DNA from: a virus
Direction: 5' to 3' (one strand)
DNA length: 64,000 nt
Virus record (IMG/VR): IMGVR_UViG_3300008113_000014
Span: 1 to 64,000 of that record
This document shows, piece by piece, positions 15,370-64,000 of the stretch; within the stretch, counting starts at the first letter, position 1; the number at the start of each line of letters is the position of its first letter. A program made the translations under genes and the position numbers. The notes below the pieces were generated by a model that did no database searches, was not told the origin of the DNA, and worked only from the letters and a program-made list of their open reading frames with translations.

Positions 15370-18300
15370 TTATTCTGCTCCTGGAATAGTAAAGTATGGG
15401 AAGTAAGGCCCAGCAAAATAAGGTGGGAAGAATGGTCCAAAAGTAGGTGGGAAGAATGGTGGGAAGAATGGTGGGAAGAATGGTCCAAAAGTAGGTGGGA
15501 AGAATGGTGGGAAGAATGGTGCAGCCACACCCGTAGCTTGATTAACAACAGCCTGTGTTCCTGAAACGGTATTTTGATTTAATCCAACTACACTGATAGT
15601 ATATTGAGCATTAGAAACTAAACCAGTCAAAGCTCCAGAAGTGGTTGTTGTGGTAAATTTTGGGTATCCCGTAATTGAGACTGCACTACTAGTCCTAAAA
15701 ATATCAACATAAAATTGTGTAGCATTTGTTGATGACCAACTTGCTGTAAAACCATTTGAAGTAACATTTGTAATAGTAATAGCTGCTGGGCCTGATAATG
15801 TACAAAAAGACGTTGAAGAAGATACAGTATCACTAGCACTTGATATTACAGAAAGAGATGGTGAATAAATTGTATTTGCAGTCAAACCAGTTATTGATCT
15901 AGTAACCGCACTTGTTCCTGTATAAGGTGTAGATGGTGCTCCTGGAATTGATATAGAATAAGTTGATTGGTTTGTAGATCCCCACGAAAGTGTAGCAGAG
16001 GTAGCAGCAACTGCAGAAGATGAAAGTGCTGTAGATATTGTTGGAATAACCATTGATATTGATGATGCAGATCCAGTTCCTGTTGAGTTCTTTGCTCTAA
16101 CAAAAAAGTTGTTACTTCCAGATAAACCAGTTACGCTATATGTTCTTACATTTCCAATATCTGTATATCCAAGATTATTAATTTGAACTTCATAAGAAGT
16201 AACTGTGCCAGCAGGTGCGTCCCATGTAAATGTTTTTGATCCACCATTACCAGCAGATTTTGCTAAATTTGGTGGGGGCCCTGGAACTGCTGCTGATGTA
16301 GTAAATGATGACCCAGTAGTTGTTGCAGTATCTCCATTAGGTCCAGTTATTGTAAGAGTTGGGTTATAGGTTGTGCTTGGTGTTAATGCATTATTAACAG
16401 CATAAGTTGTTGCTGTAGTTCCAGTAAATGGACTTCCTGTAGCTCCTGGTATTGATAAAGAAAATGTAGATTGATTACTAGTATTATTTGTCCAGTTAAA
16501 TGCTGCACTGACTGATGTTACTGGATTTGCTGCTGGGAAAGAAGAAATAACTGGTGGAGTGAACTGTCCAGTGCTTGCTGATGAGCCTGCTCCTGAACCA
16601 TTATAAGCTCTTACCTGAAAAGTGTTTGCTCCATTAACAACTGTTAAAGCAACTGAGGTTGTTAAACCAATATCAATAAATCCAAGGTTATTAAGTTGAT
16701 ATTCATAACCAGTTGGTGTTGATCCTCCAGATGGTGCAGACCAAGTAAATGTTTTTGCTAGACCATTTCCAGTTGTTCTTTGAAGATTTGTTGGGGTTCC
16801 TGGTACTGGCGCTGCTGTAGTAAATGTTTGAGATGCTGATACAGTATCTCCAGTGCTAGATGCTACAGTCATTGTTGCCGTATAAGTTGTACTTCCAACA
16901 AACGCATTATTTATTGCATAAAATGTTCCAGAATCATTTCCAGTAAATGGTGTACCAGTAGCTCCTGGTATTGATAAAGAATAGCTTGACTGATAATTAG
17001 ATGTCCAATTAAATAAAGCTGATGTTGATGTTACTGGGCTTGGTGCTGGAAAAGTAAGAGTTGGTATAGTAAATTGTCCAGTGCTTACAGACGTTCCTGG
17101 TCCTGCTGCAGATCTTGCTCTTACTAAAAATGTTAAATTTTGCCCAGCTATATTTGTAAAAGATACAGACCTTGTTAGTCCTGTGCTTACCCAGCCTGCC
17201 CCACTTAAGTTATATTCATATGATGTAGGAGTTGTTCCAGATGATGGTGCGTCCCATGTAAATGTTTTATTTGTTCCATTGCCCAAAGTTCTTTGAAGAT
17301 TGGTTGGTGGGCCTGGTACTGGAGCAAGAGTAGTGAATGCAGTTCCTGTAACAGTGTGGGTATCTCCAGTACTAGAAGTAATTGTTAGTGTGGGAGTATA
17401 TGTTGTGCTTCCAACCAAATCTGTTGGTGGGGTAGTTGTTAGAGATTCCGTTGTTCCTGTATATGGAGAAGTTGCTCCTGCGGGAGATAAAGATAGAGAC
17501 CATGTTGCTTGATCATTAGATGCCCAATCAATTTCTGCTGCAGTAGAATTTCGTGTAAGCATAAATGGCGATGTTGTAACTCTTGGCACAGTAAATGATG
17601 GAGTTAATACAGCTGAGCTTTCAGCAGTTGGACCAACAGACTTTACTGAAAAAACATTTTGTGATCCATAGACTGTTGTTATTGAAACACTAGTTAGCAA
17701 GTTATTGCTTATCCATCCTGAATCACCAAATGGACTAGTATATCTATACTCATACCGTGTAATTGTTCCACCACCTACTGGATCTACCCAGCTAAATGTC
17801 TTTGATGTGCCATTTCCTAACGTTCTTTGTAGGTTTGTAGGTGGATTTGGAGGTGTCTGTAGTGGACCCCTAACAGCAAATTGCTTAATTCCGTAATCCA
17901 CTCCTATACTATAATCTGTTCCACTATTTTTTTGTGTGTCAACAGCATAGTAGTATGTATTTTCTGGAAGAGTAGATGGTGTAACTACAGAAGATGTTAC
18001 GGTATATATTCCTGATGATAATGTTGGAGTTGAAGTGGTTACTCCAGAAGTTACCTCTGTTCCATATGTTGCTATATTTGAAGTATTGTATGTTCCAGAT
18101 GTTGCTGTATACCACTTTACAGAGCTTCTTGTTGAGTCTGGAAGGTATTCTTGTGCACCATTCCAAGATGATGTGTAGTATAGTGTTGTAGGAAGACTAG
18201 TAACTACTCCTATTATAGATGGTGTAGTTCCAGATTTAGGCTCTGGCTCATTTCTTATTACTGGAATTCTATATCCGACACCTGTTTCTGTGTTGTCGGA

Positions 18301-18777
18301 GCTATCTTCTCCATTTGCATTGCTTGATGTTACAGCAGTAACTGTTAATAATAGATACTTACCGTCAAAGTTTGCTTGATCACACACAACAGATGCGTAT
18401 GAACCAGACATAGTTCTTTCAGATACTAAAGTTGTGTATGGACCAGTATCTAAGATCCCTGAAGTAGACCCCTCAACTTTATATCTATAAGAAGATATTG
18501 TTTCTCCATTGCCAACCCAAACACCCCTTTGTGCATAAACTGTTTCACCAAATATAATTGGATAAACAAGAGGTGAATTACCTGCAGTGTCTGATGAAAA
18601 AAATGGAGCTGTTGTTGTGTATGGTCCAGACTTTGGCCAGAATTGAACCCAGCCAGAAACCTTTTTAATAAATCCCTTTTTTACCTGTGCCCAGGTACCA
18701 CTAGTACCCCCTGGTTTTTTTACATCAAATCTTTTTACTTTGGTCCACCCAGATGGCTTCTTTGCATAAAATGGCAT
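15370..18777 (-). CDS. Fibronectin-repeat tail fibre with proline-aromatic tail
   Basis: An 1135-residue fibre-like protein. The N-terminus (MPFYAKKPSGW) has repeated basic W-x-x-V-K elements. From about residue 310 four repeating modules of roughly 170-180 residues follow, each starting P-P-x-N-L-x-[RK] with F-[ST]-W, typical of fibronectin type III-like beta sandwiches alternating with a second beta domain. The last 50 residues are a low-complexity proline-aromatic tract (FFPP units, PTFGPFF) ending PYFPYFTIPGAE. The same terminal motif ends the gene at the right edge of the window. It is probably exposed on the virion and binds the host surface. Its ATG overlaps the stop of the upstream gene (TAATG). 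Confidence 0.85.
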   Translation of the reverse strand: MPFYAKKPSGWTKVKRFDVKKPGGTSGTWAQVKKGFIKKVSGWVQFWPKSGPYTTTAPFFSSDTAGNSPLVYPIIFGETVYAQRGVWVGNGETISSYRYKVEGSTSGILDTGPYTTLVSERTMSGSYASVVCDQANFDGKYLLLTVTAVTSSNANGEDSSDNTETGVGYRIPVIRNEPEPKSGTTPSIIGVVTSLPTTLYYTSSWNGAQEYLPDSTRSSVKWYTATSGTYNTSNIATYGTEVTSGVTTSTPTLSSGIYTVTSSVVTPSTLPENTYYYAVDTQKNSGTDYSIGVDYGIKQFAVRGPLQTPPNPPTNLQRTLGNGTSKTFSWVDPVGGGTITRYEYRYTSPFGDSGWISNNLLTSVSITTVYGSQNVFSVKSVGPTAESSAVLTPSFTVPRVTTSPFMLTRNSTAAEIDWASNDQATWSLSLSPAGATSPYTGTTESLTTTPPTDLVGSTTYTPTLTITSSTGDTHTVTGTAFTTLAPVPGPPTNLQRTLGNGTNKTFTWDAPSSGTTPTSYEYNLSGAGWVSTGLTRSVSFTNIAGQNLTFLVRARSAAGPGTSVSTGQFTIPTLTFPAPSPVTSTSALFNWTSNYQSSYSLSIPGATGTPFTGNDSGTFYAINNAFVGSTTYTATMTVASSTGDTVSASQTFTTAAPVPGTPTNLQRTTGNGLAKTFTWSAPSGGSTPTGYEYQLNNLGFIDIGLTTSVALTVVNGANTFQVRAYNGSGAGSSASTGQFTPPVISSFPAANPVTSVSAAFNWTNNTSNQSTFSLSIPGATGSPFTGTTATTYAVNNALTPSTTYNPTLTITGPNGDTATTTGSSFTTSAAVPGPPPNLAKSAGNGGSKTFTWDAPAGTVTSYEVQINNLGYTDIGNVRTYSVTGLSGSNNFFVRAKNSTGTGSASSISMVIPTISTALSSSAVAATSATLSWGSTNQSTYSISIPGAPSTPYTGTSAVTRSITGLTANTIYSPSLSVISSASDTVSSSTSFCTLSGPAAITITNVTSNGFTASWSSTNATQFYVDIFRTSSAVSITGYPKFTTTTTSGALTGLVSNAQYTISVVGLNQNTVSGTQAVVNQATGVAAPFFPPFFPPTFGPFFPPFFPPFFPPTFGPFFPPYFAGPYFPYFTIPGAE
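15409..15522 (-). repeat. Tandem repeats coding FFPP units
   Basis: Near-perfect direct repeats of a 12-base unit (GGTGGGAAGAAT on the plus strand) interrupted by copies of TGGTCCAAAAGTA. They encode the FFPP/PTFGPFF tract. Such repeats can change copy number by slippage. Confidence 0.8.
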
Positions 18778-46300: not shown

Positions 46301-48334
46301 TTAATAGAGTTTAATCTCACAAGCATCTGTTGAGCAATACTGCTCTCCTTCAGCCTCAAGATTTTCTATTCCATCATAAATAGCAGACCAGTCAATCTTA
46401 CCAATTGTGCCTACATATGCGTTGTATTCTTCTCTTGAGATTTCGCTATATGGTTGCTGTGGATAAACCTTATCTCCCATTGGCAAGAAGGATACAGCCT
46501 TTAACTGGCCTTCGTACATATTTAATGCTGGAGCAACAAACTTCTTTTCAGTCTCTTTGTTAAATGAAAGTGTTACAGAAACACCATTATCTGACCAATA
46601 CTTCTGGGCTGTTGCTGCTAGACCAATCTTCTCAAATAGGCTAACATGTTTTTCAGAACGCTTGTGTCCTGAAGCAACTGGGAAATATACTACTGAGGTA
46701 TTTGCTGATACTAAGTCTGGTTCAATCTTATACCCTGCAGCTTTAAAAAGATGAAGCATTGGATCAGTATTTCCAAAACGTATAGCACGAAGATAAAACT
46801 CTCCTCCAGGTCCCCAGTGAACTCCAGGAGTTGCACCAGAAAGTAGTGACACTGATCCTGATGGCTTGACCGTTGTTACACGAACTGATTCACGAACACA
46901 TAGCCACTCTGAATATTGATGATCATAATGACGAATCTTTTTGTATCCTTCATCCATCCATTCACGAGTTGTTGGAAGTCCATATGTGTCTGCAAATGAT
47001 GCAATACCTGTCAATGAGGTTCCAATGCGACGATTACGTTGCATAATACCGTTTGTTTGTGGCCAGTGTGTTGGAAGAAGCGTTACAGTCTTTCCATAAA
47101 GGTACGCAAATTTCAACGTCTTGAGGAAGTCCTCCTTGGATTCATGACGATTTAAGTGCACTTCTACAAGTGTACAAAGTTCGTATGATTCCAATGGCTG
47201 CTCCGCACAAGGGTTGAAGCCCATAATGCGACTGTCCTTATAATCAGGAGCATCCGCAAGACGGCCATAATCACGGGCAACATCAAGCCAGATAAAACCT
47301 GGCTCTCCATTGTCTGCAATTAAATCTACATAGTCTTCATATTTTGTTCCAACTGTTGCTGAAATAGAGTTGTTTGACATCCATGCCCAACCTGGCTTTT
47401 CTGGATCATATGAGTTACGTTCTGGAAATACTTCTGGATTCTTAAGATTAATAAATCCATTATCTTCTGCAGTACCAAGTGCAAGAGTAGCAGAACGACG
47501 AACATTTCCTGATACCACACAGGTACCAATAAGATTAATAATATCAACAATAGCACGGCTATCTAAGAACTCTCCTGCTCTAGAGCCAATTACATTGCGA
47601 ATACGTGTATGGAGATCAATGAGTGGTGCTGGACCGCTTGCAACGCCTCCAAAGCCCTTAATAGGGGCACCTAGTGGACGGATAAGGTCATAGTTAAAAA
47701 GCTGAATTGATTGATTTTGGCGTAAAAATGAGTTAATCAAGATACGAACTGATTCAACCCAGCCTTCACGAGTATCAGGAATATCATATGTTGATTCTGG
47801 CTCTGTTGGTGCGTAGATTGCCATTTTCTTATCTTGGCCAAGAGTATCAAAGCCAACTCCAATACCTAGCATTAATGCATCCATTACCCAAGCAAATAAT
47901 GCACCAGGATCATTGCGGTCAAGGTCTCTAGTTGAAACCATTGCACAATTTTGGAGGGATGAAGAGTTGCGCTTTTCCATAGTCATTGGTGTACCAAATG
48001 CCCAAAGACCACGACCTGGAGGAGTCCACTTTAATTCAAACATTCTTTGAAAGGCTTCCTGTGCAGACTTCTGTGCTTTATTATCATTCCATGGTAGACG
48101 ATTATCTTTAGCATGATTCTTTTGAACTGAATACATACCCTCAATTACACGGCGACAAACCTCATGCCAGCGTTCTTTTGTTCCATCTTCTTTAACACGA
48201 GAATATGTACGAATAAATGTTATCTCTCCCAATGAATTGGACCCTGCATCTGAAAATCCAAATGGAGCTGGAGTAAACTGATATTTATTTACAAACTCTT
48301 CTGATAAACGAAACGAAAATACACTTTCTGACAT
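46301..48334 (-). CDS. nrdJ: Class II (B12-dependent) ribonucleotide reductase
   Basis: A 677-residue monomeric ribonucleoside-triphosphate reductase of the Lactobacillus leichmannii type. Signature sites include the first active-site Cys in S-L-Q-N-C-A-M-V, the N-P-C-A-E-Q-P-L-E-S-Y loop carrying the radical Cys and Glu, and a C-terminal C-S-T-D-A-C pair that passes electrons. It makes dNTPs from NTPs using adenosylcobalamin and needs no oxygen or partner subunit. The gene is alone in its unit, with a terminator before and a promoter at 48396, amid the virion genes. No cobalamin riboswitch was seen upstream. Confidence 0.94.
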   Translation of the reverse strand: MSESVFSFRLSEEFVNKYQFTPAPFGFSDAGSNSLGEITFIRTYSRVKEDGTKERWHEVCRRVIEGMYSVQKNHAKDNRLPWNDNKAQKSAQEAFQRMFELKWTPPGRGLWAFGTPMTMEKRNSSSLQNCAMVSTRDLDRNDPGALFAWVMDALMLGIGVGFDTLGQDKKMAIYAPTEPESTYDIPDTREGWVESVRILINSFLRQNQSIQLFNYDLIRPLGAPIKGFGGVASGPAPLIDLHTRIRNVIGSRAGEFLDSRAIVDIINLIGTCVVSGNVRRSATLALGTAEDNGFINLKNPEVFPERNSYDPEKPGWAWMSNNSISATVGTKYEDYVDLIADNGEPGFIWLDVARDYGRLADAPDYKDSRIMGFNPCAEQPLESYELCTLVEVHLNRHESKEDFLKTLKFAYLYGKTVTLLPTHWPQTNGIMQRNRRIGTSLTGIASFADTYGLPTTREWMDEGYKKIRHYDHQYSEWLCVRESVRVTTVKPSGSVSLLSGATPGVHWGPGGEFYLRAIRFGNTDPMLHLFKAAGYKIEPDLVSANTSVVYFPVASGHKRSEKHVSLFEKIGLAATAQKYWSDNGVSVTLSFNKETEKKFVAPALNMYEGQLKAVSFLPMGDKVYPQQPYSEISREEYNAYVGTIGKIDWSAIYDGIENLEAEGEQYCSTDACEIKLY

Positions 48335-55191: not shown

Positions 55192-55764
55192 ATGAGAAGA
55201 GATAAGAAGGTTTGGATTGGAATCCTTGCACTACTTGGGTTGGTTGCTCCTTTGAGTAATTCAGCCAATGCTTTAAATACCGAAAATAATCTAAGTAAAA
55301 CAGAAGTTCTTGCTATGCCAACCGCCAAAGCGGTTTTTTTGCTTTCTAAGCCTAAAAGTCTGGTAGCAGTAAAAAAAGACTTAAACGTTCTGCACAAGTA
55401 TCAAGATGCCATTAGTCTGACAGATCGTCAACTAAAGGAACTTCTTCATGCCGTTGGTTTCCGTGGAGAGGGCCTTGTAAAAGCTTGGGCGGTAGCTAAG
55501 AAAGAATCTAATGGTCGTCCAATGGCTTTTAATGGTAATGAAAAGACTGGGGACAATTCTTATGGTATATTCCAGATAAATATGATTGGAATGCTAAAGG
55601 ATGGTCGCAAAGAAAAGTTTGGCATTAACTTTAACAGTGAATTGTTAAACCCTGTTATTAATGCACAGGTTGCCTATCATATGAGTAATGGTGGTAAAGA
55701 TTGGTCTGCTTGGCATGGAATAACGCCAAAGACTAAGGTTTGGATGAAGAAGTTTCCTATTTAA
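55192..55764 (+). CDS. Secreted lysozyme-like transglycosylase
   Basis: A 190-residue protein with a Sec signal peptide (basic start MRRDKK, hydrophobic core, cleavage likely after A27 in SANA). The C-terminal domain is a lysozyme/SLT-fold: catalytic Glu105 in AVAKKESNGRP, then N-G-N..G-D-N-S-Y-G-I-F-Q-I-N and a final W-S-A-W-H-G. It cleaves peptidoglycan, so it could be a signal-exported endolysin or a virion exolysin. It is the only plus-strand gene, has AGGAGG and its own promoter. Its stop overlaps that of the convergent oxygenase gene by three bases. No holin was identified. Confidence 0.88.
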   Translation: MRRDKKVWIGILALLGLVAPLSNSANALNTENNLSKTEVLAMPTAKAVFLLSKPKSLVAVKKDLNVLHKYQDAISLTDRQLKELLHAVGFRGEGLVKAWAVAKKESNGRPMAFNGNEKTGDNSYGIFQINMIGMLKDGRKEKFGINFNSELLNPVINAQVAYHMSNGGKDWSAWHGITPKTKVWMKKFPI

Positions 55765-56336
55765 AAAGGAAGATCTTTATTTAACGTTACTGGGTATTCG
55801 TCATTACCCCTCATAAAGATAGTTGAAAAATATCTTGTAGTATCATTTAGGACTGGTAATGAGCCATGCAGTATTTCTCCTCCGTGAATAAGGGCAGATC
55901 CTGCTTTTGGTTTAATTGTTATTCCTAATTCTGGATAGTCAATCTCTCCACCAAGATAGTCATTATTATAGTAAATTACGATGCCGTATCCAAGATAATA
56001 CCCTTGTGGGGTTGTGTCATTATCACGATGCTGACCAATTGCTTCTTCCTCTTTAAATCTAGATATTTTTATTTCTTTTTCACAGTAATAATATGATGGG
56101 AATATGTAATCAACTTTATCAAAAATAGCAGTCTTGCAAAATTCATTATTTTCACCAAGGAATAAGCTTTTGCCATACCAAAAATCATTCTCATCACCAA
56201 TATAGTTTTTGTCATGCCATTGATCTTCAGTTGCTTGATTAATAATAGCCAAAATTGACTCTAGCTCTAAAGAATCTAAAAAGTTTTCAATTTCATAAAC
56301 ATCTTCAGCAAGTTTGTTAATTTTAAAATTATACAT
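55761..56336 (-). CDS. 2OG-Fe(II) dioxygenase, last in cassette
   Basis: A 191-residue P4H-type enzyme. The Fe ligands H-x-D are in G-Q-H-R-D-N-D and the distal His in I-L-H-G-S; the 2-oxoglutarate-binding residue is the Arg of T-T-R-Y-F. The strand motif Y-Y-N-N-D-Y-L-G-G-E-I lies between. It starts at the ATG 56336 five bases after the dehydrogenase stop; a longer TTG start is less likely. Substrate unknown. Confidence 0.88.
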   Translation of the reverse strand: MYNFKINKLAEDVYEIENFLDSLELESILAIINQATEDQWHDKNYIGDENDFWYGKSLFLGENNEFCKTAIFDKVDYIFPSYYYCEKEIKISRFKEEEAIGQHRDNDTTPQGYYLGYGIVIYYNNDYLGGEIDYPELGITIKPKAGSALIHGGEILHGSLPVLNDTTRYFSTIFMRGNDEYPVTLNKDLPF

Positions 56337-56340
56337 AGGG

Positions 56341-57009
56341 CTAACCAAATTTACTACTATTAATATGATTTAGCTCAATATGATTAATGTTAACATGGCT
56401 TGGTAGATCAGATACCCAGCGAATGCACTCTGCCATATCCTCAGCGGTAATAGCACTATCACGTCTTTCTTCTTGTGTATCAATTGTGCCTGGACAAATT
56501 TCAGTTATTTTAATACCATATTGAGGAAATTCTAGCCTCATTGTATCTACCAATGCCATCTGACCTCTTTTAGCATTAATGTAATTGCCTCCAGAACGGT
56601 ACGGAACCTTACCACCCAATGAGCTAACAAAAATAATGGTTGGGTTAGTGGACTTTTCCATTGCTGGTACAAATAACTGAGAAATATACATTGGCCCTGT
56701 TACATTAATATCATATGCAATTCTAAAGTTTGCTGGTGTTTCATTAATAATCATTGTTGGACTAGATCCACCACCTGCATTATTAACTAGCAAGTCTAAA
56801 GTGATGTCTTTATATTTTTCAGCAAATAGTTTTATTTGGTCAGAGTCTGTAACATCTATCTGATAAATTTCAACATTGTCTGAAACAAGGTCTAACATTT
56901 TAGAGATATTTCTTGATGCTGCGATTACCTTGTATCCACTTTTTTCAAGAAGCTTTACGGTTGCTCTTCCAACACCCTTGCTTGCTCCAGTAACTATTGC
57001 TGTTTTCAA
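56341..57009 (-). CDS. Short-chain dehydrogenase/reductase
   Basis: A 222-residue NAD(P)-dependent SDR. It has the Rossmann Gly motif T-G-A-S-K-G-V-G (residues 7-14), N-N-A-G (76-79), catalytic Ser130 (V-S-S-L-G-G), and Y143-x3-K147 (N-Y-I-N-A-K). It starts at a TTG directly after the previous stop codon (ATGTAATTG), consistent with the usual M-K-T-A-I-V-T-G start. It sits among the oxygenases, so it may reduce or oxidise a product made by them. Confidence 0.92.
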   Translation of the reverse strand: MKTAIVTGASKGVGRATVKLLEKSGYKVIAASRNISKMLDLVSDNVEIYQIDVTDSDQIKLFAEKYKDITLDLLVNNAGGGSSPTMIINETPANFRIAYDINVTGPMYISQLFVPAMEKSTNPTIIFVSSLGGKVPYRSGGNYINAKRGQMALVDTMRLEFPQYGIKITEICPGTIDTQEERRDSAITAEDMAECIRWVSDLPSHVNINHIELNHINSSKFG

Positions 57010-57741
57010 TTACATGCTCTGACTAGAATTAAGGCTCATGTGGTTATGAATCCAGTGACCAGGAACCATAAACTTATACCCAGACTTAACTACGTGTGCT
57101 GTGTGAAAGTATGGAGCGTATGCTGGAAATATAACAACGCTATTTGCTTTAGGTTTTAAACCAAAATCAATAGATTTATCAGCAACTGCAACATCATAGT
57201 CTAAGTCTACTGCTGGAGCACCTCTTACCCATCCATCAGAACTTGTCCATCCTCCATCATAATCTTTTAGCTGGAAAGAGATTTCTCCACCCTCACAGTC
57301 ATCATTGAGGTACATGACTAAAGAATATCTTAGGGTTTGGTCTCCATCTAATTGATCAAAGTGTGCCCCCATGCCCATTCCAGTATTATATTTTTTTATA
57401 TTAAAGGTTGGAAAAAGCCTTGGCTCATCAAAATCCCCCAAAGAAGATGCGTAGTCTTTGCAAACATTGTACATCGTAGTCATAATAGCGTCATATATAT
57501 ATTTACTTTTTTCTGCTACTTCTCCACTAAGGTTGTTTATTGCGTTTACGTCAAATGTTTTTGTTTCTCCATAAATAAAAGTTTTGTCGTTAGAAGATGT
57601 CCAAGGGTTCCAAACATTTACACCTAACTCACTGTATTGCTCAAGAGTATCTAGATCTTTCCAAACCTTTTTAAAGGTATCAAAATCTTCTATTGCATCA
57701 GTATAGTAATAAGTTTTTGGATCTAGTTTTTCTACGTTCAC
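57010..57741 (-). CDS. 2OG-Fe(II) dioxygenase (243 aa)
   Basis: A 243-residue P4H-like enzyme. H-F-D in A-H-F-D-Q-L, distal His in F-H-T-A-H, and the 2OG residue Lys in S-G-Y-K-F-M. The strand M-Y-L-N-D-D-C-E-G-G-E-I is present. It uses GTG with AAGGAG upstream. The C-terminal part differs from the others, with W-I-H-N-H at the end. Confidence 0.88.
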   Translation of the reverse strand: MNVEKLDPKTYYYTDAIEDFDTFKKVWKDLDTLEQYSELGVNVWNPWTSSNDKTFIYGETKTFDVNAINNLSGEVAEKSKYIYDAIMTTMYNVCKDYASSLGDFDEPRLFPTFNIKKYNTGMGMGAHFDQLDGDQTLRYSLVMYLNDDCEGGEISFQLKDYDGGWTSSDGWVRGAPAVDLDYDVAVADKSIDFGLKPKANSVVIFPAYAPYFHTAHVVKSGYKFMVPGHWIHNHMSLNSSQSM

Positions 57742-57750
57742 CTGTTCTCC

Positions 57751-58410
57751 TTAGTATTTGTTGTTTTCATAGTGGTTTTTTTCTTTAATAAATCCTACTA
57801 TAACATATCTTATTGGTCCTTCTCCAACATGCTTTACTCCATGCTCGTGCTTATTGTCCCCTGGAAAAAACAACAAGTCTTTTGGCTTTGGTCTTAATGA
57901 TATTCCAAGATTTGGAAAGAACAGCTCTCCTTCTACATAGTCATCATTTATATATATAATTGTTGCATATTTTATTGATGGGTCTGTATGCTGATCTGTA
58001 TGAGATTTTAGTTCAACTCCTTTTTGCATTCTTTGAATTGTTGCTAATCCACTTAACATTAATAAAGGATCTGAATCATCAACCATTGTTGATAATCTTT
58101 TATAAAAAACTTGCTGCTCTTTATGATGCTTTATGTTTAAATTTTTATCTGCCCAGTTTTGTGTGATTTCAAATTTTCCTTCAGCAACAAGGTTGTCTAC
58201 ATCATCTCTTCCAAACTTTTCCATACAAAATCTAGCAAGATTTGTTGTATATTCTATTTCCCAGTCTGCTTGTGATGCATTATCTATGCATTTTAAAACA
58301 AAGTCTAGATCTTCATTTGTAAAAAAATCTTTAATCCAAAGAATTTCATCTGTAACTTCTTCAAATACAAAATTATTTTCTTTAAGTTTTTCTTTAAACT
58401 TTTCAAGCAT
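57751..58410 (-). CDS. 2OG-Fe(II) dioxygenase (219 aa)
   Basis: Start at the ATG 58410 (M-L-E-K-F-K-E-K), preceded by GAGGTG, overlapping the previous gene. Fe ligands H-x-D in S-H-T-D-Q-H and the His of H-E-H-G-V; 2OG Arg in I-R-Y-V. The strand I-Y-I-N-D-D-Y-V-E-G-E-L is a variant of the common motif. Same family as its neighbours. Confidence 0.88.
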   Translation of the reverse strand: MLEKFKEKLKENNFVFEEVTDEILWIKDFFTNEDLDFVLKCIDNASQADWEIEYTTNLARFCMEKFGRDDVDNLVAEGKFEITQNWADKNLNIKHHKEQQVFYKRLSTMVDDSDPLLMLSGLATIQRMQKGVELKSHTDQHTDPSIKYATIIYINDDYVEGELFFPNLGISLRPKPKDLLFFPGDNKHEHGVKHVGEGPIRYVIVGFIKEKNHYENNKY

Positions 58411-59158
58411 TTGGCACCTCATTAGAGTTATACTTATTTCCGTCCTTGTCTAGCTTCCAGCCTTGCTTAAGCAATTCTTGCCATTCTGCTCTTTCAATTT
58501 CTTGTTTTGCTCTAGTTTCTTTCATTTCTGCAGCCCAGGCATCTCTTAATTCTTGTGGGTATGCATCTTCTTCTCTGTCGTCCCAAAAAGAACCAATTGT
58601 ATATCTAACTCCCTTAGTAATAAGGCTTACCTCGTGCATGTTATTAAATCCACCATCAAAAGCAGCAAGCATTCCAACTTTAGGTTGTAGACTTATCTCT
58701 TGATCTGGGAACTGTAACATTCCACCATCAAAGTCATCGTTCAAATATAAGAATGCTGCATATCTACTTCTTGTAAATGCACCAGAGTGTCCGTGTTCGT
58801 CTGTGTTGTCAGAGTGTTTTCTTGCATACGCTCCTGGCTCCCACTTTTGTGTGTGATAACCAATTTGAGAAATTATTTTTGGATCAAGGTCGTGAACGCT
58901 TGCAACTGCATCAATAATTCCTTGTTTTATTTGTGAAAATATGTCACTTGGCAATCCTTCATTCTTTACATGCTCGTCGTCATCTTGTGGTAAAACAGAA
59001 GAGTATGATTCATAAAAAGATATAGGCATCCAGGTAATCAATTCAAGTTCTGCATGCTTGTCTAAAACTTTTACAAGTTTAGCAGCAGTTTCTGAATCAA
59101 TAAAGTTTTCATAAACAACAATGTCTTTTGTTATTCTAGTTTTATTGGTTAAGTTCAT
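58403..59158 (-). CDS. 2OG-Fe(II) dioxygenase (251 aa)
   Basis: A 251-residue enzyme with H-S-D (A-R-K-H-S-D-N-T), distal His in N-M-H-E-V, 2OG Arg in G-V-R-Y-T-I, and the strand F-L-Y-L-N-D-D-F-D-G-G-M-L. The C-terminal 50 residues are a charged helix not seen in the others. It overlaps both neighbours by a few bases (ATGA). Confidence 0.9.
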   Translation of the reverse strand: MNLTNKTRITKDIVVYENFIDSETAAKLVKVLDKHAELELITWMPISFYESYSSVLPQDDDEHVKNEGLPSDIFSQIKQGIIDAVASVHDLDPKIISQIGYHTQKWEPGAYARKHSDNTDEHGHSGAFTRSRYAAFLYLNDDFDGGMLQFPDQEISLQPKVGMLAAFDGGFNNMHEVSLITKGVRYTIGSFWDDREEDAYPQELRDAWAAEMKETRAKQEIERAEWQELLKQGWKLDKDGNKYNSNEVPNA

Positions 59159-60027
59159 TTTATTCTCACAGCTCCCTCTATCTCATTTCTTTGTGGGTTG
59201 TCTATTCTAAACTGCTCGTTCAGCTTTGGTTGCATGCTAGACCAAACATCTTTTCCAAATTCTTTTTCTTTCTCATACCATTCATCTGTTCCTTTTTGAT
59301 ATTTTTGCCAATACATTCTTGCTAAAAATTTGTTTTTGTTATAAGACGGCATAACCCCATGTAAGTATGGTTTGTCATCCTCTGTTAAGTAATCTGGGTG
59401 TCCTGATGGAAAAACTAAAAGATCTCCAGCTTCTGGCTTGTACTTAACAAGTTTGTCTCCCATAGCAAAGTCAATTTCTCCACCTTCATAGTCATCATTA
59501 AAATAAATTGTACATGTTATTATAAACTTATATCCTGGAGCAGATCCTTGCTCTCTCATATAGTCTGAATGATATCTCATTCCATGTTGTTCTTCTTCGT
59601 TGCTGATATGATACTTTCCTATTGTTCCACCTGTCCATCTCCAGGTTGGAATAAGATCGCCTGATTCGTCTATGGACAATGACTCTAAATCTACATCAAT
59701 GTTATATTTTTTAATATAGTCTTCTGTAACTAAATGAAAGTTTTTCATCATTTCTATACCAAATTGTTTTTGGTTTTCTTCAATTTCTGTTTTTGTTTCA
59801 ATGCTTTCTAAACCTCCATCTTTATAATCCATAGAAAAAGAAGGTGTCATTGGATTTAAATATTCTCCAAAAATAGACCACTTTGTCCAAGGATTAAAAA
59901 GTCTATCTTCTGACTCTATTAAAGAATCTGTTAAAACCTTATAAGATTTTGAAATATCTTTAAACATGTTTTTATAAACAAGAATATGTGGATATATCTC
60001 TACAGATTCAAGAGCTGGAGTAGTCAT
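59155..60027 (-). CDS. 2OG-Fe(II) dioxygenase (290 aa)
   Basis: The largest of the set, 290 residues. H-S-D in R-Y-H-S-D-Y, distal His in Y-L-H-G-V-M, and strand I-Y-F-N-D-D-Y-E-G-G-E-I. The 2OG basic residue is probably Lys or Arg in K-F-L-A-R-M. It has a long N-terminal helical part including an acidic stretch and a C-terminal tail. Start overlaps the previous stop (TAAATG). Confidence 0.88.
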   Translation of the reverse strand: MTTPALESVEIYPHILVYKNMFKDISKSYKVLTDSLIESEDRLFNPWTKWSIFGEYLNPMTPSFSMDYKDGGLESIETKTEIEENQKQFGIEMMKNFHLVTEDYIKKYNIDVDLESLSIDESGDLIPTWRWTGGTIGKYHISNEEEQHGMRYHSDYMREQGSAPGYKFIITCTIYFNDDYEGGEIDFAMGDKLVKYKPEAGDLLVFPSGHPDYLTEDDKPYLHGVMPSYNKNKFLARMYWQKYQKGTDEWYEKEKEFGKDVWSSMQPKLNEQFRIDNPQRNEIEGAVRIK

Positions 60028-60702
60028 TTATGGTTTCCTGTCTCCAGTGTGCTCTGTAATTTCCCAGAAAAATGGGCATGTAAATCTTAATCCACTCTTT
60101 ATCTCAGTCACTCCGTGAATATAGTTTTTGTCTCCTGGGAAGAAGTAAGCTGCACCTTTTTTTGGTTTAAACTGTACACCTTGTAGTGGGAAATACAGTT
60201 CTCCTCCCTCATAGTCTTCATTTAAATAGAACAAACTAGATAAATCATAATTAGGAAAATCGTTTGGAAGTCCAGCGTCTGGGCCATCGTGAAGTTCTTT
60301 GTCTGCGTGAGGTTTTTGAAATTGTCCTGGAAGCCACTTTACTATAGTGGTACCTGTAGGGATAACCTTTACTTTGTAAAACTCTTCTACTATTGGTTGT
60401 AGTCTTTGAAATAGTCCAGCAATGACTGGGGAAATGTTTGGATCGTTTTTATCTAGGCTTGGTTGAGTTGCTACTCTATCTTTCCAATAATCAGAATCAT
60501 AAACAACCGTTCCATTTTCATTAACATGACTTTGTGTTACATCCCAAATTGTCAAAGATTTTGCAGATTTTTCTAAAAACTCTATTTCTTCTTGAGTCAT
60601 AAAGTTTTCTAGCTCAACGATCATGTCTTTGCTATCACCAAACCAGCCAGATGGTGTGAGTGAAGCCTTTCTAACTACAACAGAAGCATCCATTTTATCC
60701 AT
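60028..60702 (-). CDS. 2OG-Fe(II) dioxygenase, leaderless (224 aa)
   Basis: A 224-residue enzyme. H-A-D in K-P-H-A-D-K, distal His in Y-I-H-G-V-T, 2OG Arg in G-L-R-F-T, and strand F-Y-L-N-E-D-Y-E-G-G-E-L. An extended -10 within the end of the preceding gene would start transcription on this ATG, so it may be made separately as well as from the main operon. Confidence 0.9.
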   Translation of the reverse strand: MDKMDASVVVRKASLTPSGWFGDSKDMIVELENFMTQEEIEFLEKSAKSLTIWDVTQSHVNENGTVVYDSDYWKDRVATQPSLDKNDPNISPVIAGLFQRLQPIVEEFYKVKVIPTGTTIVKWLPGQFQKPHADKELHDGPDAGLPNDFPNYDLSSLFYLNEDYEGGELYFPLQGVQFKPKKGAAYFFPGDKNYIHGVTEIKSGLRFTCPFFWEITEHTGDRKP

Positions 60703-60704
60703 AA

Positions 60705-61433
60705 TTAGATTATACCATTTCCCTTGTTTGATGTATTATCAGTAACAGAAAGACGTAAAACCTTAGTTTCGTGAGAACCCGTACTTTCACCTTTTTCATT
60801 TACTGCATCTCTATACCAGTCAGTCCATTGTCCAGACTTGTTGATTTCTTGTGCAGCTTCACCATACGACTGATGAGCCATCTGCCTTTTTCTATCTACA
60901 TCTGAATAATCAATTATTTGAATTGATGTATTGTCCATTGCCGTCAAAGAAATTGGAATTATTGTAGCAATTGGGGTTCCTGCTTTTATAGTAATTTCCT
61001 TGTTTGCAGATCTTGCTTTAATTGCTAATGGAAAACCAGTATCAAGCCAAGATGTAGATATTAAAGATGACATTGTTTCAAAATCATCATTAAAGTAATT
61101 AACTGGATTAATTGTAAGCATGCTAACGTTTTGCTCAGATCTAAAAGTTAGGCCAGTATGTAGGCTAACTGTAGACTGCCCTCTTCCAGTATATGTAAAG
61201 TCTGAACCTTCTAGTATAGTTACATTCTCTGAACTTGTATCATTTATACCGTTCCAAATAAACTTAATGTCTTCAGTACATGAAAGACTCCAGCCAACCA
61301 TATTCGCTTGTGTAACTGGAAAACATCTATAGGCATGCTTTTCTGGAGTTACATCCATCCAATCTCTTTTAATTGACATTGGAGAAAGTATGATTTTTGA
61401 ATCTGGAAATCTTTCAGCTGATATATTAAGCAT
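60705..61433 (-). CDS. DUF6065-family protein (242 aa)
   Basis: A 242-residue beta-rich protein fitting DUF6065: the opening R-D-W-M-D-V-T-P, then A-Y-R-C-F-P, A-N-M-V-G-W, F-I-W-N-G, and H-T-G-L-T-F-R. No H-x-D iron motif. Proteins of this family are found next to dioxygenases and cupin-like enzymes; their activity is not established. It is coupled to the upstream gene by TAATG. The C-terminus contains the promoter for the next gene. Confidence 0.82.
   Translation of the reverse strand: MLNISAERFPDSKIILSPMSIKRDWMDVTPEKHAYRCFPVTQANMVGWSLSCTEDIKFIWNGINDTSSENVTILEGSDFTYTGRGQSTVSLHTGLTFRSEQNVSMLTINPVNYFNDDFETMSSLISTSWLDTGFPLAIKARSANKEITIKAGTPIATIIPISLTAMDNTSIQIIDYSDVDRKRQMAHQSYGEAAQEINKSGQWTDWYRDAVNEKGESTGSHETKVLRLSVTDNTSNKGNGII
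60709..60714 (-). promoter_or_regulatory. Internal extended -10 promoter
   Basis: Minus-strand TGGTATAAT formed by the last codons (Asn-Gly-Ile-Ile-stop) of the DUF6065 gene. The +1 lies on the ATG at 60702. Confidence 0.6.
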
Positions 61434-62089
61434 TAGTCTTTGTCTACCATATACATTTCGTTAGTGTGAAACTTTTTGTTATAATCAAGCATTGTTACAA
61501 TAGAATACTTTGTTCCTGAAATAACTGGCATTGCACGATGAGGATACATGAAGTTTGATGGAAAAATAAATAAATCTCCTGCATCTGCCTTAATGTCTAG
61601 GTTCTGGAGTCTAAAGAAAAGTGAACCGCCTTCATAGTCATCATTTGGGTATGCAACAAGTGACACTGTGCAGTTATAAGAAAAACCATGATCATGGTGT
61701 TCTTGAAAGTGTTGTCCTGGTCCATATTTAATAAAATTAAAAGCTTCCCAATACTTTAAATCCATTATGTTGTAGTCTTTTCTGTAATCATCAACACATG
61801 GAGACTTAACATCATATAGATCTTGCCAAAGCTCTTGTAGTTTTATTGAGTCTGGTGTTTTGTTTTGTTCAATATCAGTTTTCTTATACTTAAAATCTAC
61901 ACAGTCTCTGTAGTCTGGAATTAGCTGCTGGTATCCAACATATGCTGGTTGCCAAGTAAATTGTTCTTTTGAACCTAGTGGCTTTACAACAGATTCAATT
62001 CTGTTTATCACATCAATATCTTTATTAATGACACCTTTATAGCATACAATACCATTACCATAGTTAACCTTTTCTGTCCAAGTTTGCAT
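61433..62089 (-). CDS. 2OG-Fe(II) dioxygenase (218 aa)
   Basis: A 218-residue enzyme with H-x-D in E-H-H-D-H-G, distal His in Y-P-H-R-A, and 2OG Lys in G-T-K-Y-S. The strand A-Y-P-N-D-D-Y-E-G-G-S-L replaces the common E by S. It is a close paralogue of the first enzyme in the cassette (shared E-A-F-N-F-[IV]-K-Y and the I-S-G-T-K-Y end). GGGAG precedes the ATG. Confidence 0.9.
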   Translation of the reverse strand: MQTWTEKVNYGNGIVCYKGVINKDIDVINRIESVVKPLGSKEQFTWQPAYVGYQQLIPDYRDCVDFKYKKTDIEQNKTPDSIKLQELWQDLYDVKSPCVDDYRKDYNIMDLKYWEAFNFIKYGPGQHFQEHHDHGFSYNCTVSLVAYPNDDYEGGSLFFRLQNLDIKADAGDLFIFPSNFMYPHRAMPVISGTKYSIVTMLDYNKKFHTNEMYMVDKD

Positions 62090-62097
62090 TTTTCTCC

Positions 62098-62874
62098 CTA
62101 TTTATATTCTCTTCTAGACCAAACTTTATTTTTATAAATACCGCCGTCTGGTTGGCGATAAAAATTTGCATTGGCTATCATTTTAGCATATATCTTTTCT
62201 TGATTTTGAAACTCTATCTCATGGCTCCAGTTTTCTCTTTTAAATGGTAAAATTTGGACATATGGAGTCCCTGCTGGTATTGTTCCTTCCCAGCCTTCTG
62301 CAATAAAAAATGGAAAGGTACCAAGCAGGTGAACACTGTCATTATCAACAACACCAGTTGTATTAATAAATGGAAGATCAAATCTATTCATAGGTGTCAT
62401 AAATAATGCACTATATCCTTCTGGAAGTTCAAATCCCCAATCTGGATACCAGGCAAAATGATCTTTGTAAAATCCTTTTGGGTGCTCAAACTGTGGCATA
62501 GCAAGTCTTTTTCCACAAAAATCTTGATGTCTTTTATCTTCTATCTTAACATCTATTGATCCTGTCTCAGTTTTAAAAAAAGTAAGGTCACAAGGAGTTC
62601 TTAATACATATCCTGTTGAAAACCCATCCATAATTGCTGGACAAGCTTTCCATGTAGGTATTTTTCCATAGTCATCTGTAGTTCCTTCTTTTGGAAAAGG
62701 ACAAACTTCTTTTGGTGCTTTGTAGTATTCACCAGTTGGCATTTTTGCAAATCTGTCGGCATCTTTATACCATTGTGGTATTTCAGACTGTGTTGTTTTA
62801 GGCACTGATTTACTATCCTTGTTTAACCAAGGCCTAAAAGATCTAAAGATTACTAAATTATCTTTTAGACTCAT
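62098..62874 (-). CDS. DUF6065-like protein (258 aa)
   Basis: A 258-residue protein related in layout to the product of 60705-61433, with segments such as W-K-A-C-P-A-I-M-D-G-F-S-T-G-Y, F-F-I-A-E-G-W-E-G-T-I-P-A-G-T-P-Y. Aromatic-rich throughout. The start overlaps the preceding oxygenase gene by 17 bases. Probably a beta-sandwich partner for the oxygenases; similarity to the DUF6065 family is less clear than for its paralogue. Confidence 0.7.
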   Translation of the reverse strand: MSLKDNLVIFRSFRPWLNKDSKSVPKTTQSEIPQWYKDADRFAKMPTGEYYKAPKEVCPFPKEGTTDDYGKIPTWKACPAIMDGFSTGYVLRTPCDLTFFKTETGSIDVKIEDKRHQDFCGKRLAMPQFEHPKGFYKDHFAWYPDWGFELPEGYSALFMTPMNRFDLPFINTTGVVDNDSVHLLGTFPFFIAEGWEGTIPAGTPYVQILPFKRENWSHEIEFQNQEKIYAKMIANANFYRQPDGGIYKNKVWSRREYK

Positions 62875-63586
62875 GATGATGCCCTAATAAATTAATATCT
62901 GTCATAATTACAACACAATATTTTGTTCCAGATATCATTGGAAGAGATGCATGTTCATATATATAGTTTGATGGGAAAATTGCTATGTCTCCAACTTTTG
63001 GTGTTAGTGTGTATCCATCTAATCTTGGAAATTTAATTTCTCCACCTTCGTAGTCGTCATTTATATATATAACTGCAGAAACTGTAGTATTGTATGCTGG
63101 TCCATGGTCGGCATGAATATTAAAGTGCTTACCCTGTCCCTCATACTTTACAAAATTAAAAGCTTCATAGTATATAACATTTATTCCCCAATATTTTGCA
63201 TAGTCATCTATGCATAGTTTTAATTTTTGATAAATCTCTTCGTGTAAATCAATTAGTTCACCATTAAACTCATCTCGTGGACCAAGATTTTCTTGCTTAT
63301 ATCTAAAATCTACAGCATCTCTTGCTTTTTTTATTGGTGTAGTAGCATTGGTTACTTGTGCTTCTGACCACTTATACTTTCTACCATTAGACAAATTGGA
63401 CTCAAGAATATTGATGTATCTTTTAGAGTCCTCCAAAGAAAACGTATTTCTGTATATATTTAATCCAAGTCCTGGATTTTCTATTACAATATTTTTTTCA
63501 GATATATCTCTATTAACCCTATTTGATACAGTCTCAGATCTATCTTTAGTAAACCATGGGTTTTCATTTTCATCATAAGTGTTCAT
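62858..63586 (-). CDS. 2OG-Fe(II) dioxygenase, first in cassette
   Basis: A 242-residue enzyme. H-A-D in I-H-A-D-H-G, distal His in Y-E-H-A-S, 2OG Lys in G-T-K-Y-C, and strand Y-I-N-D-D-Y-E-G-G-E-I. A long polar N-terminus precedes the catalytic part. AAAGGGG lies before the ATG, about 13 bases from the predicted transcript start of the strong cassette promoter. Confidence 0.9.
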   Translation of the reverse strand: MNTYDENENPWFTKDRSETVSNRVNRDISEKNIVIENPGLGLNIYRNTFSLEDSKRYINILESNLSNGRKYKWSEAQVTNATTPIKKARDAVDFRYKQENLGPRDEFNGELIDLHEEIYQKLKLCIDDYAKYWGINVIYYEAFNFVKYEGQGKHFNIHADHGPAYNTTVSAVIYINDDYEGGEIKFPRLDGYTLTPKVGDIAIFPSNYIYEHASLPMISGTKYCVVIMTDINLLGHHHESKR

Positions 63587-63739: not shown

Positions 63740-64000
63740 TTACTGTACACCTGGAAGTGTAAAGTATGGGAAGTAAGGGTTATTTGCAGGGAAGTATGGG
63801 AAGTACGGTGGGAAGAATGGGAAGTAAGGGAAGTAAGGGAAGAATGGAGGGAAGAATGGGAAGAACGGGAAGTAAGGGAAGAAAGGTGGGAAGAACGGGA
63901 AGTATGGGAAGAACGGGAAGAAAGGTGGGAAGAACGGGAAGAATGGGAAGAACGGAAAGAAAGGTGGGAAAAATGGTGGGAAGAATGGGAAGAACGGTGG
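63740..64000 (-). CDS. Proline-aromatic repeat protein, 5' end outside window
   Basis: The last 86 residues of a protein whose start lies beyond the right edge. Residues come almost only as P-F-F, P-Y-F and P-P-F-F units (about 25 units in a row), with one break (P-A-N-N-P) near the end, then P-Y-F-P-Y-F-T-L-P-G-V-Q. The reading frame is unmistakable because every third codon is Pro. The same ending P-Y-F-P-Y-F-T-[IL]-P-G terminates the fibre at 15370-18777, so this is probably the tail of a second fibre. Confidence 0.85.
   Translation of the reverse strand, partial: PPFFPFFPPFFPPFFPFFPFFPFFPPFFPFFPYFPFFPPFFPYFPFFPFFPPFFPYFPYFPFFPPYFPYFPANNPYFPYFTLPGVQ
63767..64000 (-). repeat. 9-base tandem repeats (P-[FY]-F codons)
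   Basis: Repeated GGGAAGAAC / GGGAAGTAN units on the plus strand continue to the edge of the window. The 9-base period and 12-base GGTGGGAAGAAN variants correspond to PFF and PPFF. Confidence 0.85.

Follow-up and report, generated by a model that had tools for sequence, protein, structure and literature searches.

Gene content of the cassette locus

Eight open reading frames (ORFs) for oxygenases dependent on 2-oxoglutarate (2OG) and Fe(II), all of prolyl-hydroxylase type, lie on the minus strand at 55761–63586 of the window, by which we mean the whole stretch of DNA analysed here, i.e. the first 64 kb of the 108,863-base IMG/VR virus record IMGVR_UViG_3300008113_000014. Genes were called as simple ORFs, and the contigs used throughout are metagenomic and often partial. 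Read along the minus strand, the cassette starts with H60 (62858..63586; PF13640 44.2 bits; iron triad and basic residue H158/D160/H212/K222), the type of which tracks PxF (single-Pro) spacing as described below, followed by U59 (62098..62874; phrog_7084 7.6e-31), a DUF6065-like protein with a dUTPase-like predicted fold, G58 (61433..62089; 47.6 bits; H131/D133/H184/K194), the DUF6065 protein U57 (60705..61433; PF19541, E 1.8e-31) and F56 (60028..60702; 36.6 bits; H132/D134/H196/R206). The variable member E55 (59155..60027; 39.3 bits; H153/D155/H223/K233), D54 (58403..59158; 37.5 bits; H115/D117/H175/R185), C53 (57751..58422; 39.1 bits; H141/D143/H194/R205) and B52 (57010..57741; 36.9 bits; H127/D129/H213/K223) come next, and the cassette closes with an SDR-family oxidoreductase (56341..57009; PF00106, E 1.5e-39), a conserved member with 48 homologues in related loci, and the variable last oxygenase A50 (55761..56348; H107/D109/H161/R172).

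The PF13640 gathering score of 27 bits was passed by seven of the eight frames (36.6–47.6 bits); A50 scored under the cut-off (23.3 bits, E 1.3e-4) but matched phrog_61, '2OG-Fe(II) oxygenase', at 1.6e-13, with the triad present in 21 sequences. The eight 2OG-Fe(II) frames and the SDR described in an earlier note, which was made from the letters of the window, were thus confirmed, most frames falling within the 2OG-Fe(II) superfamily in the profile searches. As for its two DUF6065-like genes, the frame at 60705–61433 is DUF6065, whereas the one at 62098–62874 is without a Pfam match and matches only phrog_7084, which is common to both. The strand motif given there, [YF]-x-N-[DNE]-[DY]-x-x-G-[GE], fits seven frames; C53 has YINDDYVEGE instead.

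The gene upstream of H60 (contig 63740–64705, minus strand) encodes a fn3-like sequence (E 7e-8) followed by approximately 100 residues of PFF/PPFF/PYF units in the pattern PFFPPFFPYF..., and is a probable tail-fibre protein. Its C-terminal (P)PxF repeat, the presumed substrate, starts 154 bp upstream of H60 and occupies 63740..64000 in the window with 31 PFF/PYF units; because the gene runs past the window end, this neighbour was missed in the earlier note. Synonymous codons vary along the repeat (Pro by CCA/CCG/CCT, Phe by TTC/TTT) while the residues stay, so that the amino-acid pattern and not the DNA is kept. Units in related loci have F, Y, S, T, A or W in the middle, and in the counted runs they always end in F. 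A second fn3 protein of 1135 aa with a PFF/PTF/PYF tail is encoded in the tail-gene block (15370..18777, minus strand), with a minor tail protein and a frame of 2985 aa, which we take to encode the tape measure, upstream on the same strand. The terminal residues of the two fn3 tails are nearly alike (PYFPYFTIPGAE vs PYFPYFTLPGVQ).

Paired PFF proteins within one genome often have common terminal residues, e.g. FDPYAW, PSFYYFR or Cys-rich caps (window contig, L069, L079, L083, L141, L178), as if a common factor recognised the C-terminus; no recognition domain was found of the kind known from ribosomally synthesised and post-translationally modified peptides (RiPPs). Some PFF proteins end in Hint/intein-like domains (L186:3040-5559, L213:3566-6481, L171:2140-3861, L074:6915-8297, L179; weak Pfam matches or by eye), which suggests self-processing after the repeat, and two of these are embedded in Thr-rich, mucin-like sequence. 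A radical SAM/SPASM gene stands between PFF protein and cassette in L081 (6515-7516) and also in L085. Both the Hint/intein-like fusions and the radical SAM/SPASM gene would fit a theme of protein maturation.

Each oxygenase family was aligned with 21–81 homologues. HxD...H...K/R was conserved to at least 97% in all eight families, so the triad noted earlier is kept in the homologues of every frame, and the basic 2OG residue (Lys/Arg) sits ten or eleven residues past the second His in every family. A 45-row alignment over all eight families showed H158, D160, Y174, N176, G182 and H212 (H60 numbering) to be invariant. The median ratio of non-synonymous to synonymous substitution rates (dN/dS) was 0.07–0.15 for every cassette gene, i.e. 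purifying selection, and hence no cassette gene is decaying. In the tree, every oxygenase family formed an old clade of its own, with H60 + G58 and B52 + E55 as sister pairs; recent tandem duplication as origin of the cassette was rejected on these separate clades, in agreement with the old divergence proposed in the earlier note.

The AlphaFold2 (AF2) model of H60 (pLDDT 81; the input alignment contained mixed paralogues) has the double-stranded beta-helix of prolyl-hydroxylase type. Its best PDB match was to peptide complexes of the HIF prolyl hydroxylase PHD2 (E 6e-10), followed by Pseudomonas putida prolyl 4-hydroxylase (P4H) in complex with EF-Tu, an algal P4H bound to (Ser-Pro)5 and the chlorella-virus P4H; TMq was ~0.5–0.64 over these matches. 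In profile searches, bacterial and viral collagen P4Hs and lysyl hydroxylases were the nearest solved relatives. A resemblance of phage proteins to human EGLN3 has been noted earlier (PMC12774648). For U59 (AF2 model, pLDDT 83), nearly all of the best 50 PDB matches were dUTPases at moderate similarity (Foldseek best E 5.8e-4, TMt 0.63), and parts resembling dUTPase motifs III/IV (GVVDxD, GTPxxQ) were recognised by eye in U59 and are absent in U57. The dUTPase-fold DUF6065-like proteins are probably accessory proteins and not nucleotide enzymes. In haloarchaeal viruses of the HF1/HF2 type, relatives of U59 are encoded close to tail-fibre genes and a class II ribonucleotide reductase (RNR).

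Linkage of the repeat to the oxygenases

IMG/VR was scanned with H60, which yielded 461 relatives, and the best 80 loci of the 461 were read; among these best 80, H60 is at least 79% identical. The recurring order is PFF protein – (small genes) – H60 – U59 – G58 – U57 – F56 – (E55) – D54 – C53 – B52 – SDR – (A50), with E55, A50, a FkbM-like gene (by eye), a glutathione-peroxidase-like gene and others as variable members, and larger relatives carry 6–13 PF13640 genes each. The repeat protein lay just 5' of H60 in all 72 related loci with enough upstream DNA, as on the window contig, and the 8 loci without it each have less than 1.6 kb upstream. The viruses carrying the cassette are an abundant, uncultured lake group. 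No H60 relative above 60% identity was present among 50,697 phage records, in which cyanophage and marine-virus proteins came closest at ~25–41% identity, and thus no isolate of the cassette clade is among these records. Searches for isolated-phage relatives of the PFF protein, the repeat of which is masked by the low-complexity filter, and of the DUF6065 gene also found none. A WhiB gene (contig 94909-95196; PF02467 1.2e-10), by which actinobacterial phages of lakes are usually recognised (PMC6802176), is the one feature pointing to an actinobacterial host.

The linkage was then approached from the repeat: 120 viral loci were chosen by a degenerate DNA pattern for PFFPPFFPPFF alone, blind to oxygenases, and counted where at least 3 kb of downstream sequence was available (72 repeat loci), with collagen-like and PTPT-repeat phage genes as controls. 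An oxygenase followed within 3 kb downstream of the repeat in 60/72 loci, and a DUF6065-like gene in 49/72. The corresponding values were 1/53 (p 5e-22) and 0/53 for the collagen-like controls, and 4/58 (p 7e-20) and 0/58 for the PTPT-repeat controls. Control loci were unmatched for habitat; the contrast between upstream and downstream served as habitat-free control, oxygenases being found upstream of the PFF repeat in 2/50 loci and, where 3 kb was available on either side of the repeat gene, downstream in 21/26 and upstream in 1/26. The oxygenases nearest to repeats grouped into 11 clusters at 50% and 5 clusters at 40% identity. Repeat loci contained 345 oxygenase genes in 1,084 kb, the controls 2 in 1,048 kb and 10 in 1,146 kb, so that the clustering is not due to chance. 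Sixteen records had no nearby oxygenase (12 misses and 4 with short downstream sequence), 8 of them with PF13640 genes elsewhere; in the other 8, which may be fragments, no such gene was found. PFF DNA was looked for in S-SCSM1, S-SSM7, S-SCSM2R and HF2 and was absent; as there are multi-oxygenase cyanophages without the repeat, the presence of oxygenases does not predict it, but a repeat is mostly accompanied by oxygenases.

A scan of 84,980 cellular genomes for the repeat returned 8 contigs, of which 4, from 3 metagenome-assembled genomes (MAGs), were credible. PFF repeats stand beside oxygenase or DUF6065-like genes in Verrucomicrobiales, gammaproteobacterial and Chitinophagaceae MAG contigs (L097, L099/L102, L103), which may be viral contigs binned with their hosts. 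With 4 credible and possibly viral contigs, a cellular origin of the repeat was rejected.

Enzyme type and repeat spacing

Two kinds of tail were distinguished: mixed PxF/PPxF tails with an H60-type enzyme, and near-pure PPxF tails with F- or G-type enzymes and without H. The F56 type is the commonest enzyme alone, or with a G-type gene, next to pure PPxF tails. Across 36 dereplicated loci, the single-Pro fraction was 0.21–0.71 where the H type was present and at most 0.11 where it was absent (36/36 fit), and the single-Pro units in H-less tails were essentially the run's first unit only. On the G58-type tree, the H state and the spacing state each underwent five changes with identical labels, and monophyly of the H loci was rejected (approximately unbiased test, p-AU 1.7e-4). 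L187 represents a natural near-deletion, in which B, D, E, F and G are kept, H is missing and the tail is pure PPxF. The Y-fraction and the S/T-fraction of the repeats gave trends only against the enzyme set. Action on different positions or spacings within one repeat fits H60 vs F56/G58 better than action on different substrates; the different substrates proposed in the earlier note are possible for the cassette, with the reading by spacing the better fit at least for these types.

Proposed function and alternatives

In viruses with the repeat, oxygenases usually follow it and therefore probably modify it chemically. We consider it likely that the locus is a phage post-translational modification cassette, the oxygenases of which act on tail proteins by hydroxylating their (P)PxF repeats. 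The fn3 protein upstream of H60 and the second one from the tail block, both with C-terminal PxF/PPxF units in which x is mostly Phe or Tyr, would be hydroxylated, probably at Pro and perhaps at Phe/Tyr, either ahead of virion assembly or in the course of it. F-/G-type enzymes would serve the PPxF units, for which they are apparently sufficient, and single-Pro PxF units, where they occur, would call for the H type; further modifications would be added or elaborated by the remaining oxygenases and the SDR, joined in some relatives by radical-SAM/SPASM or other enzymes. A soluble or adhesive tail extension meeting the host surface is the likely use. Gene content, conserved triads, fold, linkage of repeat and cassette, and co-variation of enzyme and spacing are shown by the data; from these we infer that the repeat serves as substrate and its protein is part of the virion, whereas the modified residue, and a role in solubility or adhesion, are guesses. 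The earlier note had proposed an expanded oxidative pathway acting on proteins, glycans, nucleotides or host metabolites; proteins are favoured here, and the other targets are unsupported, the metabolic-pathway reading giving way to the more specific one given above. At about even odds in our judgement, the cassette belongs to an undescribed, widespread class of tail extension that is matured by its own hydroxylases and dUTPase-fold helpers, with enzymes and spacing co-evolving, and that forms a polyhydroxylated Pro-Phe fibre without known biological counterpart.

Several points weigh against this interpretation. Repeat modification is a prediction from sequence data, up to eight enzymes for a single repeat are lavish, and the conserved gene order stems partly from shared ancestry. 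Sequence matches to solved P4Hs have weak E-values (1e-4 to 1e-3), and repeat contigs without any oxygenase were found, e.g. of 36.8 and 38.4 kb, which may be fragments. In a set of 149 tails, the H-spacing rule is broken by L171, of a Cys-containing repeat lineage, and by L212, the latter only because of an H call that is itself weak (41 bits). The formal significance of the co-variation is overstated, because several families and features were explored and H was chosen after the table had been seen.

That the cassette instead alters host metabolites, glycans or lipids, and owes its place beside the repeat to an insertion hot spot at the tail-fibre end of the late operon, is unlikely in our estimate. 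Phages commonly carry 2OG oxygenases as accessory genes (PMC3037559, PMC9602691), an SDR is present in the cassette and other enzymes are added in some relatives; however, neighbouring-fibre controls are almost without oxygenases (1/53, 4/58), the linkage is almost strictly downstream, and repeat spacing tracks the presence of one enzyme type. A further candidate substrate is the collagen-like tail protein one gene further upstream (contig 64746-65456; PF01391 2.9e-7), with the PFF repeat as bystander: it has GXY repeats with Y-position Pro, and collagen hydroxylases are among the nearest solved relatives of the enzymes. Its gene has 19 homologues in 80 loci, whereas the PFF protein occurs in all testable loci, and collagen-like phage genes are generally without an oxygenase nearby (1/53); it was rejected as not conserved with the cassette, and we regard this explanation as quite improbable.

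Action on nucleotides or DNA, in one pathway with the dUTPase-fold partners and the class II RNR, would account for the predicted fold of U59, for weak Tet_JBP matches and for an RNR near the cassette here and near the U59 relative in haloarchaeal viruses. Matches of the cassette oxygenases to the Tet_JBP profile stayed at 14.7–20.3 bits, far under the cut-off of 34.9, on which TET/JBP DNA modification was rejected; dUTPase motifs are recognisable only in part in U59 and missing from U57, and the window's cassette is without a methyltransferase or base glucosyltransferase, making this explanation very improbable. Next to no probability is given to oxygenases that mainly drain or sense 2-oxoglutarate in infection, an idea proposed for cyanophages (PMC3037559), which needs neither eight conserved divergent families nor a tight link to one structural gene, and the proposed target of which, NtcA, is cyanobacterial, whereas WhiB here points to an actinobacterial host.

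Among known systems close to the cassette is Paramecium bursaria chlorella virus 1 P4H (PDB 5c5t), a virus-encoded enzyme of prolyl-hydroxylase fold that acts on Pro-rich repeats and was matched by both structure and sequence; that virus is eukaryotic, with a single enzyme and other repeats, whereas here a phage cassette is tied to PxF/PPxF. Collagen prolyl and lysyl hydroxylases (LH3; procollagen lysyl hydroxylase 6ax6) are likewise dedicated to a periodic structural protein and gave weak H60 matches, but their substrate is the GXY triple helix; the enzymes here are without a fused glycosyltransferase, and PxF is without a triple-helix pattern. In plant extensins and mussel adhesive proteins, Pro/aromatic repeats depend on hydroxylation for their function; the proteins are unrelated to the PFF tails, and the comparison is by analogy only. 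Multi-oxygenase cyanophages share many diverged PF13640 genes per phage and the PHROG 61 family, but S-SCSM1, S-SSM7 and S-SCSM2R are without PFF-repeat DNA, the genes are mostly dispersed in the stretches read, and the host group is another one. T4-like cyanophages have 1–5 2OG genes and Synechococcus phage S-SCSM1 has 24 (PMC9602691), so that the earlier note's 'one or a few per genome' is outdated and gene number alone was rejected as a novelty. Freshwater actinophages, including Planktophila phages E7/F5, have whiB and a fibre region with collagen-like genes, but E7/F5 are 39 kb isolates, and no oxygenase is mentioned in the paper's text (PMC10202952).

The enzymes are thus of a known kind, and multi-oxygenase phages and viral collagen hydroxylation are already known; the repeat, its dedicated cassette and the enzyme–repeat co-variation appear to be new, and none of the papers searched contains the repeat string or DUF6065. 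In aquatic phages, genes for 2OG oxygenases rank with the most common accessory genes that lack an explanation, and a metabolic role is the usual guess; the cassette locus offers a concrete, testable substrate for them. If true, a phage tail repeat served by a hydroxylation cassette of several dedicated enzymes would, to our knowledge, be without precedent; it could lead to a new repetitive biomaterial, to a mechanism by which lake phages attach to their hosts and to hydroxylases with distinct spacing preferences.

Other genes of the window and contig were also annotated. The class II (B12-dependent) RNR at 46301-48334 of the window adjoins the cassette in many relatives. Outside cassette and window, the contig has three further P4H-like 2OG genes (87701-88474, 99770-100378 and, weaker, 102909-103559) and a TauD-type one (84046-84873). 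The oxygenase at 87701-88474 lies in a block with apparent glycosyltransferase, nucleotidyltransferase and sulfotransferase genes, and a signal-peptide frame at contig 89478-90602 resembles, by eye, the phage-borne phosphate-binding protein PstS.

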